DNA from: Terriglobia bacterium
GTDB taxonomy: Bacteria; Acidobacteriota; Terriglobia; Terriglobales; Acidobacteriaceae
Length of the DNA: 64,000 nucleotides
Direction: 5' to 3'
NCBI GenBank assembly: GCA_020073495.1
Contig: JAIQFD010000002.1
Span: forward strand, 496,001 to 560,000
Shown: piece after piece, positions 3,211 to 31,119 of the stretch
Layout: every line of letters begins with the position of its first letter
Position numbering within the stretch: position 1 is the first letter of the stretch
The notes under the pieces: model-generated
Seen by the model: the letters and a program-made list of their open reading frames with translations, nothing else
Databases searched by the model: none
Told to the model about the DNA's origin: nothing
Translations under genes and position numbers: made by a program

Positions 3211-3579
3211 ATGGAACTGCAGATCGAGACCCGCGACATGGACGGCGTCACCGTCGTCTTCTGCCAGGGAAAACTCGTTCTGGGGGAGGAGATCACCCAG
3301 TTTGGCAACCAGATCCGCGCCATCCTGGAAGAAAAGCCGGTGATCGTGATGGACCTCAGCGGCCTCTCCTACGCCGACAGCAGCGGCATCGGGACGCTCA
3401 TGGGGCTGTTCATCGCCGCCCGTGCGCGCAGCGGAGAGATCAAGTTCGCCAACCCTTCCGAGCGCCTTTCGCACGTGCTCAAGTCCATGCAACTGGTGGG
3501 CGTCCTCGGCATGTACCCGAAAGTGGACGACGCCATCCGCTCCCTGAAGGCTCGCTCCGCCGCTCCCGGACCGTTCTGA
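3211..3579 (+). CDS. STAS-domain anti-sigma factor antagonist
   Basis: 122-residue single STAS domain of the SpoIIAA/RsbV type. The conserved phospho-acceptor loop is present (DLSGLSYADSSGIG, Ser57/Ser58). Family members bind a serine kinase/anti-sigma factor and switch on phosphorylation of this serine. No partner kinase or sigma factor is adjacent, so its pathway is unknown. GGAG stands about 8 bases before the ATG. Confidence 0.88.
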   Translation: MELQIETRDMDGVTVVFCQGKLVLGEEITQFGNQIRAILEEKPVIVMDLSGLSYADSSGIGTLMGLFIAARARSGEIKFANPSERLSHVLKSMQLVGVLGMYPKVDDAIRSLKARSAAPGPF

Positions 3580-3616
3580 TCAACAGCAGGAATGGCGGGG
3601 AATCTGCCGACAAAGG

Positions 3617-3643
3617 AATGGCGCGCCCTGAGAGATTCGAACT
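3617..3643 (-). repeat. Truncated 3' end of tRNA-Arg
   Basis: 27 bases identical to 3758-3784, that is the T-arm 3' half, acceptor strand, encoded CCA and two following bases of the tRNA-Arg gene. With the intact gene it brackets the 114-base insert 3644-3757, like an att-site or long target-site duplication. Confidence 0.85.
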
Positions 3644-3757
3644 TGAGCCGATTTGCGGGCGTCAGACGAGCGCAGCGAGGCGGGAGCCCGCAGGCGAAAT
3701 CCTGAGCCGGAGCGCAGCGCCGGCGAAGGATCTCTCCCAGCAAGGAGCATGCAAGAA
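3644..3757 (+). repeat. tRNA-associated insert module, 114 bp
   Basis: Non-coding module containing a GCGGGC...GCCCGC hairpin followed by a second hairpin that ends GGCGAAGGATCTCT. It is clearly homologous to the inserts at tRNA-Ser (30785-30887 and 30920-31022), sharing TTGCGGGCGT, GGGAGCCCGCAG, CCTGAG and the GCGA..GG..CTCT end. It lies in the same orientation relative to the truncated tRNA end. Confidence 0.8.
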
Positions 3758-3759
3758 AA

Positions 3760-3836
3760 TGGCGCGCCCTGAGAGATTCGAACTCCCGACCTTCTGGTTC
3801 GTAGCCAGACGCTCTATCCAACTGAGCTAAGGGCGC
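3760..3836 (-). tRNA. tRNA-Arg (anticodon ACG), CCA encoded
   Basis: The minus strand folds as a complete cloverleaf: acceptor GCGCCCT/AGGGCGC, D arm with GCTCAGTTGGATAGAGC, anticodon stem TCTGG/CCAGA with loop CTACGAA (ACG), T arm with GTTCGAATC, and CCA encoded at 3762-3760. The A34 of this tRNA is the classical substrate of TadA, which is also encoded in this window. Confidence 0.96.
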
Positions 3837-3893
3837 GCGTCGCGTGCGCTGCTGAAGACCTGATTATATCGGAAGCCCGCTGGCCGTGAAAGT

Positions 3894-5303
3894 TCACGCC
3901 GCGGGCGTGCGGCGGGCGCGTTGCCCGCGCAGCGGCACATCGATGCCGTACCGCCTCATCTTGTAGAGCAAGGCCTTATAGCTGATGCTCAGCGTGCGCG
4001 CGGCTTCCTTGCGGCTCCCCCCGCTCTGCTCCAGCGCCTGCGTGATCGCTTCTGCCTCGGCTTCGTCTTTCAGGTCGCGGACCATGCGCTTGAGCCCTCC
4101 GTTGGTAGCGGCTGTGGCGGCGGCGACGGCGATCGCCGTCGACGCGGCACCGCCTTCCAGGTCACGCAGGATGAGCTTCTCGTCTCCCAACACCAGGTAA
4201 CGCTTTACCATGTTCTCCAGCTCGCGCACGTTCCCGTGCCACTCGTGACGCAGGCATGCAGCCAGGAGCGACCGCGAGAAACCCAGCGGCTGTCGGCCAT
4301 ATTGTTCCGCCATGCGCCCCATGAAATGCTTCAACAGCGCCACGATCTCCTGCTTCCGCTCGCGCAGCGGCGGGATATGGATGGTGAAAGCGTTCAAGCG
4401 GTAGTACAAATCTTCGCGCAGCCGCCCCTCGGCCAAGGCCTGCTGCACGTTGACGTTGGTGGCGGCGAGCACTCGCACGTCCACTTCGATATTGCTGCGC
4501 CCGCCCAGCCGCGAGAATGACTGGTCTTGCAGGACGTGCAGCAGCTTGGCCTGGAGCCCGGGCGACATCTCGGCGATCTCGTCCAGCAGCATGGTCCCGT
4601 GGTTGCAAAGCTCGAACTTCCCCGGCTTGGTATGGATGGCGCCGGTGAAGGCCCCCGCTTCGTATCCGAATAGCTCGCTCTCCAGCAGGTCGGTGGGGAC
4701 CGCCGCGCAGTTCACTTTGAGGAAGTCTCGGTGCGAGCGCAGCGACATCTTGTGGATCATGCGCGCCACCACCTCTTTGCCGGTCCCGCTTTCGCCCAGC
4801 ATCAGCACGGGCACGTCCACCCGGGCGATCTGCGCCACTTGGGCGCGGATCGCGTGCATGGCCGGGCTCGCCGCCACGAAGAAACAACCCTCCTCGATCT
4901 GCTCGATCTCCGCGCCTCCTCCCTCCAGCGGCCGCGTCACCGTGTCCAGGCAAACCTCCAGGACGGCGTCGAGTTCGGATCTCTGGAATGGCTTGGTGAG
5001 GTAGTCGCTCGCCCCCAGCCGCATGGCCTCGACCACCTGGTGCGTGTCGCTGACGCAGGTCAGGATGACCACCTTCAGCTCGGGTTGGAGGCGCCGCAAT
5101 TCGGCGAGCGTCGCAAGGCCGTCCATCCGCGGCATGACGAGATCGAGCAGCGTCACATCGGGAGCGTGCCGCTGCACCCGCTCGATGGCTTCTGGCCCGC
5201 TGGCTGCTGTGTCCACCTGGTAGCCGTCGATCTCCAGCAGCGTGCGCAGGTATCCCCGCATGCTCGCTTCGTCATCGACGATGAGGATTCGCCCAGCCGC
5301 CAT
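3894..5303 (-). CDS. NtrC-family sigma-54-dependent response regulator
   Basis: 469 residues. The receiver domain (1-120, phospho-Asp in LLDLVMPRMDG) is followed by an AAA+ ATPase with Walker A GESGTGKE, the sigma-54 contact loop GAFTGA, Walker B LLDEIAEM, and a C-terminal Fis-type HTH (SGGSRKEAARTLSISYKAL). It activates sigma-54 promoters on phosphorylation by a kinase that is not adjacent. A GTGA-N6-TCAC box lies about 100 bases upstream. Its target genes cannot be read from the window. Confidence 0.93.
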   Translation of the reverse strand: MAAGRILIVDDEASMRGYLRTLLEIDGYQVDTAASGPEAIERVQRHAPDVTLLDLVMPRMDGLATLAELRRLQPELKVVILTCVSDTHQVVEAMRLGASDYLTKPFQRSELDAVLEVCLDTVTRPLEGGGAEIEQIEEGCFFVAASPAMHAIRAQVAQIARVDVPVLMLGESGTGKEVVARMIHKMSLRSHRDFLKVNCAAVPTDLLESELFGYEAGAFTGAIHTKPGKFELCNHGTMLLDEIAEMSPGLQAKLLHVLQDQSFSRLGGRSNIEVDVRVLAATNVNVQQALAEGRLREDLYYRLNAFTIHIPPLRERKQEIVALLKHFMGRMAEQYGRQPLGFSRSLLAACLRHEWHGNVRELENMVKRYLVLGDEKLILRDLEGGAASTAIAVAAATAATNGGLKRMVRDLKDEAEAEAITQALEQSGGSRKEAARTLSISYKALLYKMRRYGIDVPLRGQRARRTPAA

Positions 5304-30682: not shown

Positions 30683-30752
30683 CCTGTGCCGTCGAAACTG
30701 ATTTGGTAGAATCTTAAGAGACAGCCACACACCGCCCCGATATGGGGCTCTT

Positions 30753-30887
30753 CCGGCGCGGAGAGGTGCGTGAGTGGTTGAAATCGAGGCGCATTGCGGG
30801 CGTGAGGCGCGCAGCGCCGGGAGCCCGCAGCCGAGACCCTGAGGAGCGCGCCAGTGCGACGAAGGGCCTCTACTACAATTCGATTGT
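30753..30887 (+). repeat. tRNA-Ser 5' fragment plus insert, unit 1 (135 bp)
   Basis: Starts CCGGCGC then 24 bases identical to the 5' end of tRNA-Ser (30760-30783), joined to a 103-base module with TTGCGGGCGTGAGG and GGGAGCCCGCAG hairpin arms and GACGAAGGGCCTCT. It is repeated head-to-tail with one visible difference in the next 135 bases. Confidence 0.9.
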
Positions 30888-31022
30888 CCGGCGCGGAGAG
30901 GTGCGTGAGTGGTTGAAATCGAGGCGCATTGCGGGCGTGAGGCGCGCAGCGCCGGGAGCCCGCAGCCGAGACCCTGAGGAGCGCGCCAGCGCGACGAAGG
31001 GCCTCTACTACAATTCGATTGT
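30888..31022 (+). repeat. tRNA-Ser 5' fragment plus insert, unit 2 (135 bp)
   Basis: Second tandem copy, differing from unit 1 by a single base that I can see (AGTGCGACG versus AGCGCGACG). The truncated tRNA end is 30895-30918; the intact tRNA-Ser follows directly. Confidence 0.9.
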
Positions 31023-31029
31023 CCGGCGC

Positions 31030-31119
31030 GGAGAGGTGCGTGAGTGGTTGAAACGATCCGCCTCGAAAGCGGACATACCTGAAAGGGTATCGGGGGTTCA
31101 AATCCCTCCCTCTCCGCCA
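31030..31119 (+). tRNA. tRNA-Ser (anticodon CGA), CCA encoded
   Basis: 90 bases with acceptor GGAGAGG/CCTCTCC, anticodon stem TCCGC/GCGGA with loop CTCGAAA (CGA), a long variable arm (TACC...GGTA) typical of serine tRNAs, T loop GGTTCAAATCC and encoded CCA at 31117-31119. Two truncated copies of its 5' end stand upstream. Confidence 0.96.

Follow-up and report, generated by a model that had tools for sequence, protein, structure and literature searches.

A two-hairpin module of about 90 nt, exact at one end and variable at the other, lies at often duplicated edges of tRNA, tmRNA and protein genes in Acidobacteriota

How does a tRNA gene come to lie beside a detached copy of its own end? In the window (the whole stretch of 64,000 nucleotides that was analysed), an exact 27-bp direct repeat at 3617-3643 and 3758-3784, with 114 bp in between, consists of 25 nt of the 3′ part of tRNA-Arg, from the T-loop to CCA, and 2 nt of flank. 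The original prediction had seen here 27 bp of the tRNA-Arg 3′ end in a second copy, set apart from the whole gene by an insert of 114 bp, and this layout is confirmed by the exact repeat and the tRNA call; the statement that no integrase lies inside is borne out as well, as the insert is only 114 bp. Because the last T of the repeat is also the first base of the inserted module, the break is placed in the T-loop, after ...TTCGAAC (3642; Table 1). Several questions follow. What is the insert? Where else does it occur, and into which genes? How are its two ends joined to the target? Which of the two gene edges is the native one?

The insert is one copy of a module of about 90 nt that has two hairpins with strong covariation. 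Forty-eight copies were aligned (from 52 listed references, with 5 omitted and 1 added by hand), and the two hairpins common to them are TTGAGnnG...nGCGGGC...GCCCGCnnnCGAAA and TCCTGAG...CGAAGGA. Double-sided changes are seen in 8 of the 17 predicted pairs: alignment columns 6/62 are GC in 23 copies and CG in 23, and columns 12/60 are UA in 22, AU in 18 and GC in 4. Overall, 99.0% of cells pair, and the covariation score is 0.218 versus 0.076, with none of 500 shuffles as high. By eye, a GA-over-GA internal step is present in both hairpins. DNA folding of the window module taken alone is not unusually good (z -1.2), and terminal repeats amount to just a 5-nt TTGAG/CTCAA resemblance in some copies. 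In an Rfam search of the whole window, tRNAs are the sole matches at gathering score, and at E<=1 in 3500-3900 the module itself has no match.

The proposed homology between the tRNA-Arg insert and that at tRNA-Ser was verified with the covariance model R1, whose alignment includes both inserts (scores in Table 1), and by a plain DNA search with the Arg insert, independent of R1, which found the Ser inserts at E 5.6e-9 and 1.3e-7. The Ser site turned out to be a tandem of two units of edge, module and spacer (30752-31021), followed by the complete gene, an arrangement absent from the earlier description. No spacer sequence common to several copies was seen. The window also holds a fourth, variant copy, in which the TGA of TGACGG may be the stop codon of an upstream frame (..AKCFK*, by eye); similar left ends were met at a further locus (L079) and, behind a groEL-like gene end, at L011.

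Table 1. Positions of the module copies, gene edges and tRNA genes in the window
Feature	Positions	Strand	Basis
Displaced tRNA-Arg 3′ edge (CCA through T-loop and 2 nt of flank); junction motif GAAC at its end	3617..3642	-	Exact repeat; duplication stops exactly at module left end
Module, from left end TTGAG (foot of hairpin 1) through both hairpins to right end GGATCTC	3643..3734	+	R1 74.2 bits, E 2.5e-16; covariation
23-nt spacer, module right end to intact gene	3735..3757	+	
Second edge copy, within the intact gene (from 3760 on)	3758..3783	-	Exact repeat
Intact tRNA-Arg(ACG)	3760..3836	-	ARAGORN; Rfam RF00005 69.3 bits
Fourth module copy, variant left end TGACGG after AAA	6164..6252	-	R1 57.9 bits, E 2.5e-12; sequence
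Displaced 5′ edge of tRNA-Ser including 8 nt upstream, ending in D-loop ..GGTTGAAA	30752..30783	+	Flank alignable by eye with G001 tRNA-Ser upstream flank
Module, tandem unit 1 at tRNA-Ser	30784..30870	+	R1 70.9 bits
Spacer, unit 1 at tRNA-Ser	30871..30886	+	
Edge copy between the two tRNA-Ser units	30887..30918	+	Exact copy
Module, tandem unit 2 at tRNA-Ser	30919..31005	+	R1 69.6 bits
Spacer, unit 2 at tRNA-Ser	31006..31021	+	
Intact tRNA-Ser(CGA)	31030..31119	+	ARAGORN and Rfam

R1 was run against 61 mostly draft genomes, counting a hit at E<=1e-4: the source genome of the window (G000; other G-numbers denote the genomes compared and L-numbers the extracted loci) and relatives, with 37 genomes from its own family (f1), 14 from the sister family (f2) and 10 from the rest of the class. 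Twenty-five of the 61, G000 included, carry the module; 23 belong to f1, an Acidobacteriota family (23/37), none to f2 (0/14), and two to the rest of the class (2/10), with one copy each. R1 copies number 69 in G000, 60 in G004, 59 in G001 and 36 in G008, and are fewer elsewhere. A few copies of G000 (L072 and L078; C3:92425, C3:96627 and C4:99600) consist of a tRNA-like edge and a module with no tRNA, inside another dispersed repeat, and look like secondary copies carried by that repeat. For the analysis of junctions, 182 hits were drawn from the best-scoring places, not from every copy; partial and edge-of-contig hits were dropped, leaving 160 modules that were tested for flank duplication, among which tandem units are not independent.

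At the left end, the junctions are strikingly uniform. Among 128 unique junctions, 121 have A at position -3 before the left end, against a background A frequency of 22% in left flanks, and 78 have AAG or AAC. The A is found in 21/21 duplications with ..GAAC, in 47/50 other duplications and in 53/57 junctions with no duplication, and AAG or AAC in 21, 22 and 35 of these, respectively; the target motif is thus identical with or without an edge duplication. Flank duplication exceeds the best of 200 shuffles in 105 of the 160 modules, and 99 of these 105 duplications end within 2 nt of the left end, 84 of them at 0; one of the 99 (L276) is tRNA-to-tRNA similarity. In the other 55 modules no significant duplication was found. 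Where present, duplications run from 13 to 90 bp or more.

The right end behaves differently: it may be joined upstream of the break, so that the edge is duplicated, at the break, or downstream of it, so that target is deleted. Freely varying module ends, which the original prediction had named as speaking against itself, are thus found on one side only, the left end being fixed while the right end does vary. Target deletion is seen in PcrA, where 15 of 17 genomes parsed are empty and only G000 and G002 carry modules. In G000 the module follows CCGAAG and keeps the reading frame, some 6 nt of target being lost and nothing duplicated (GKKFTRPK-LSGVAGVSEAGARTRNPERSEGT-IPAPTGKTGF); in G002 it lies at a different AAG, after GGCAAG, with about 42 nt lost. 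The second end is sealed in differing ways, and the gene is left usable each time. In these PcrA/UvrD genes (L085, 1476-1552, in G000; L262 in G002) the module reads as an in-frame 23-residue peptide in the C-terminal linker. A search for hidden protein-level duplication at modules without DNA duplication was negative: of seven scoring at least 38, six do not exceed the 95% point of the null (43), and L224 (score 56), which is above it, is below the 99% point (70) and of low complexity.

Which genes are struck? In G000, a module lies no more than 60 bp from 10 of the 44 tRNA genes, whereas 2000 random placements gave a mean of 0.24 and a maximum of 4, so the association is not due to chance. 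Duplicated edges belong to tRNAs for Arg, Ser, Ala, Leu, Met, Cys, Pro, Asn, Val, Thr, Gln and Gly and to tmRNA. Of 26 duplicated 3′ edges, 25 break at GAAC, which in tRNAs lies in the T-loop, and one (L273, Leu) does not; duplicated 5′ edges (12 cases, counting the L276 artefact) break between the D-stem and the anticodon region. At L092 (G005:C12:40240-40340), a further junction interrupts the anticodon arm of the tRNA-Arg that neighbours a module (by eye). Modules are also found at the starts of coding sequences that we take, from translated motifs, to be dnaJ, hspR, icd, rplP, mnmG, typA, atpA and a hydroxyacyl-CoA dehydrogenase-like gene, and several ends of coding sequences, stop codon included, are targeted too. 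In dnaJ and hspR of G000 and G004, a module-derived GAAGGA or AAAGGA lies 3-5 nt ahead of the restored ATG, which is where a ribosome-binding site would be. The original prediction of a non-autonomous, tRNA-targeting element therefore survives in its first half, a non-autonomous mobile module, but not in its specificity for tRNA, as tmRNA, starts and ends of coding sequences and PcrA are targeted as well. Readings in terms of tRNA processing or an att site, or of a foreign attP of one integrase, were ruled out, since every gene has its own edge duplicated and coding sequences are struck too.

The arrangement is polar. In edge-duplicating copies the broken edge adjoins the left end of the module, and the complete gene lies beyond its right end. 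Across the 160 modules, an intact tRNA or tmRNA within 75 bp stands to the right 42 times and to the left 4 times, and three of these four (L266, L276 and L282) have one on the right as well. The fixed orientation noticed at the two tRNAs of the window is hence real, but the rule follows the module and not the plus strand; the Arg and Ser loci look alike on the plus strand because tRNA-Arg was struck at its 3′ edge and tRNA-Ser at its 5′ edge. GC skew in module orientation is -0.028 (13 of 40 loci positive, p 0.005), a value confounded by tRNA orientation.

Related genomes provide empty sites. The same tRNA-Arg gene in G001 has neither fragment nor module, so the duplication is not older than the insert, contrary to an objection raised with the original prediction; dnaJ and hspR of G001 are also uninterrupted. 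Most named relatives at the dnaJ locus belong to Acidobacteriota (Acidobacteriaceae, Sulfotelmatobacter, Angelobacter and others), with two records titled Rhodanobacteraceae, and one of 80 relative dnaJ loci carries a module (L149, at hspR). At tRNA-Ser, two modules stand at the 3′ end in G001 and two at the 5′ end in G000, and the same gene is broken in the anticodon region in G015 and in the D-loop in G023; the insertions of G000, G001 and G015 must be separate events, and G000 and G023 share a break point. Break points shared across genera are those in hspR (G000, G004, L149) and mnmG (G001, G004), and among D-loops those of Ser (G000, G023) and Cys (G001, G029); T-loop pairs were excluded from this count, as a break in the T-loop is general. 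Such recurrence across genera fits a spread of site-bound elements. Further support is weak: the mnmG spacers of the two genera show marginal similarity (95 of 5000 shuffles do as well), and by eye the hspR restoring edges from three genera resemble one another no more than they resemble their hosts.

Which of the two edges is native? At dnaJ of G000, the flank of the displaced edge is alignable by eye with the native upstream flank of G001, so the left part is native. In 19 hand-picked pairs of coding-sequence edges, 109 of 149 differences between displaced and restoring edge are at third positions (p 8e-11, tested against 0.47, a hand-estimated share for one copy free and the other changing only synonymously); with two less sure pairs removed the count is 98 of 125. 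Divergence varies between zero and almost saturated: in L277, 35 codons hold 11 changes, all of them at third positions, and L265 has the third position changed in 11 of 20 codons; the pairs of L077 and L218 (each at the end of a coding sequence) and L220 are identical or nearly so. On the simplest account of this third-position excess, the displaced edge was probably still in use not long ago, and the restoring edge, brought by the module out of a related genome, was probably already diverged on arrival. A plain duplication whose left copy then decayed is disfavoured, because free decay would spread differences over all codon positions. The donor of some restoring edges cannot be distant, since residues peculiar to the host are shared: both hspR edges of G000 have K-T (Lys-Thr), where nearly all others seen have K-S. 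At L265 (583; G023:C35), the start of the hydroxyacyl-CoA dehydrogenase-like gene, the restoring edge is AT-richer and uses mostly A- or G-ending codons and the displaced edge others, a shift possibly due to selection against repeat deletion or to a codon bias of mobile DNA.

How might such a module move? Our leading reading, to which we give a probability of roughly 45%, is a non-autonomous, REP-like single-strand element of the HUH/Y1 type, with one defined end and completed by a homologous gene edge. A transposase of the IS200/IS605 or RAYT type would act in trans and nick ahead of TTGAG, and the freed 5′ end at TTGAG would be joined to a nick after an A-rich motif in the target. The trailing strand would bring along the donor spacer and the neighbouring gene edge and could then pair with the same gene in another chromosome, restoring the gene while its former edge stays behind to the left of the module. 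Unrelated sites would have their right end sealed without homology, giving copies that lack a duplication. Y1 single-strand transposases are expected to mark one end, by an exact end, an outer motif, a fixed orientation and a hairpin foot, all of which the module shows, together with a sloppy second end. The guide and foot of such systems have been described (PMC6006769 and PMC8266576). Covariation of a guide kind between the hairpin-1 loop and the junction motif was not seen by eye in about a dozen copies.

Is there a candidate enzyme? Over the 37 f1 genomes, Y1 gene count and module count are correlated (Spearman 0.63), and a strong Y1 match (best E <=1e-19) is found in 17 of 23 module-positive versus 3 of 14 module-negative genomes (Fisher p 0.003, kinship ignored). 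Four genomes with at least 5 modules (G005, G015, G023 and G027) have no strong match, and three module-free genomes have one. An enzyme whose distribution follows the module, which the original prediction proposed to look for, was not found: among Y1 transposases, the family examined, none strictly does, and none of the loci inspected shows a Y1 gene between full modules. G000 has RAYT-like genes (L012-L016), but these were rejected as owners, as the repeats around them are different REPs (by eye); an nhmmer search of flanks yielded no module apart from a variant near L011, which follows the end of a groEL-like gene. In f1, nine IS200-like Y1 proteins of eight genomes (L009, L010, L293, L299, L301, L303, L305, L309 and L310) carry Y---Q--HH, as read in these nine sequences. 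According to PMC6006769, it marks subclass 1.2, which its authors say does not share IS properties and which comes mostly from Cyanobacteria and Bacteroidetes; proteins resembling this subclass also occur in the Acidobacteriota family f1.

Other explanations have to be weighed against this one. A possible, if tentative, variant is a homing-like mini-element, in which module, spacer and gene edge would move as a unit between related bacteria to the same break point in the same conserved gene, swapping in their own edge and stranding the native one, with the target set by edge homology and a nick after an A-rich motif. More doubtful is a simple insertion that makes a long target-site duplication on the spot, by target-primed reverse transcription or a wide-stagger transposase, the survivors being those insertions that left an important gene whole. 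A precise and a sloppy end, variable duplications and target deletions resemble target-primed reverse transcription, and exact or near-exact duplications do exist (the ends of coding sequences at L077 and L218 and most tRNA edges). However, even the exact duplications stop at or near CCA, ATG or the stop codon (8 nt beyond at tRNA-Ser, by eye), the copies in coding sequences differ mostly at synonymous sites though the left one is free to decay, and intact tRNAs stand mainly on the right, by 42 to 4.

It is unlikely that the modules are tiny integrative elements that bring a gene-restoring edge of their own and enter by means of a site-specific recombinase, in the manner of phages and genomic islands at tRNA genes. 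Duplications from T-loop to CCA and gene-restoring edges are what is found at phage attachment sites, and break points are common to several genera at several genes; yet a dozen kinds of tRNA, tmRNA and many coding sequences each duplicate their own edge, with no common core seen beyond the A-rich motif, and no integrase is inside. Hardly credible at all is a repeat-mediated local rearrangement, with the module as an old passive repeat and the duplications as by-products of slippage or template switching: tandem arrays of edge and module do occur at many sites (e.g. L063, L080, L099, L207, L233 and L259), but this explanation is contradicted by the empty sites in relatives, the independent insertions at both ends of one tRNA-Ser gene and the fixed left end and motif.

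Whichever mechanism applies, polarity, target motif, break point and source edge can be read from every edge-duplicating insertion, and a module-rich genome has dozens of such sites, so that the mechanism is readable and testable. The loci give a rare view of how tiny mobile repeats may move, and they show that a mobile element can live in tRNA and other important genes without an integrase of its own and without killing the host. Truncated tRNA copies created by the module may also be mistaken for genes in annotation. No description of this gene-edge architecture was found in the open-access literature searched, subscription papers lying outside the search.

Returning to the single-strand, one-ended reading, how does the module compare with known systems? 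With IS200/IS605 elements and their miniature forms it shares a single orientation, a hairpin near the joint and a left end that is joined 3′ of a short, constant motif. These elements are not known to duplicate their target, whereas 99 of 160 modules have a duplication that ends within 2 nt of the left end. Known IS200/IS605 members have a defined right end, while the right end of the module floats. When islands and phages integrate into tRNA genes, an incoming copy of the gene end restores the gene and the old end is left as a fragment; the module differs in being about 90 nt long, in having no integrase and in using edges of protein genes and tmRNA too. Rickettsia palindromic elements, which the module resembles, by description, in its in-frame insertion into coding genes, are not known to duplicate gene edges. 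They are mentioned as mobile palindromes in coding genes in PMC3733652.

REP/REPIN sequences mobilized with RAYT are likewise short, high-copy, hairpin-forming, non-autonomous and orientation-marked by a short motif 5′ of the hairpin, and the module too is a high-copy dispersed hairpin (69 copies in G000, with covariation). The core of hairpin 2, TCCTGAGCGCAGCGAAGG, is that of inverted REPs around a RAYT gene in G027 (L313); at this locus (1-660; G027:C71) the gene lies between inverted hairpins CCCCATCCTGAGCGCAGCGAAGGGTGGG. REPs inside coding genes, including UvrABCD and RecBCD genes, have been reported (PMC3733652). Unlike REP/REPIN, the module has no GTAG-type tetranucleotide but A at -3, then mostly AG or AC, before TTGAG; only hairpin-2-like REPs, not full copies, flank a RAYT in G027; it is about 90 nt long, with two unlike hairpins in direct order; and it shows gene-edge duplication with gene restoration and frequent targeting of tRNA T-loops and ends of coding sequences.

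In PMC6006769, the repeats of class 3 TnpA-Y1 genes of Acidobacteria are atypical structures, about 600 in Solibacter, resembling both IS and REPtrons, and these high-copy structures in an acidobacterium are akin to the module; they differ in the foot CnGA beside class 3 genes and are set apart by description. No class 3 gene was recognised by eye among the 7 that were read of the 8 Y1 genes in G000. The long-TSD subgroup of IS1202 also makes long duplications, of 16-28 bp, but its members are DDE IS with imperfect terminal inverted repeats (24-26 bp in Acinetobacter members; PMC10132070), and the module has no such repeats. An IS1202-type or other DDE MITE was ruled out, as no terminal inverted repeats were seen, the duplication length is variable and the right end floats. 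Since each family considered fails at least one tested feature or could be compared only in part, the module is filed under none of them; in its behaviour it is closest to a REP or IS200-type element of which a single end is active.
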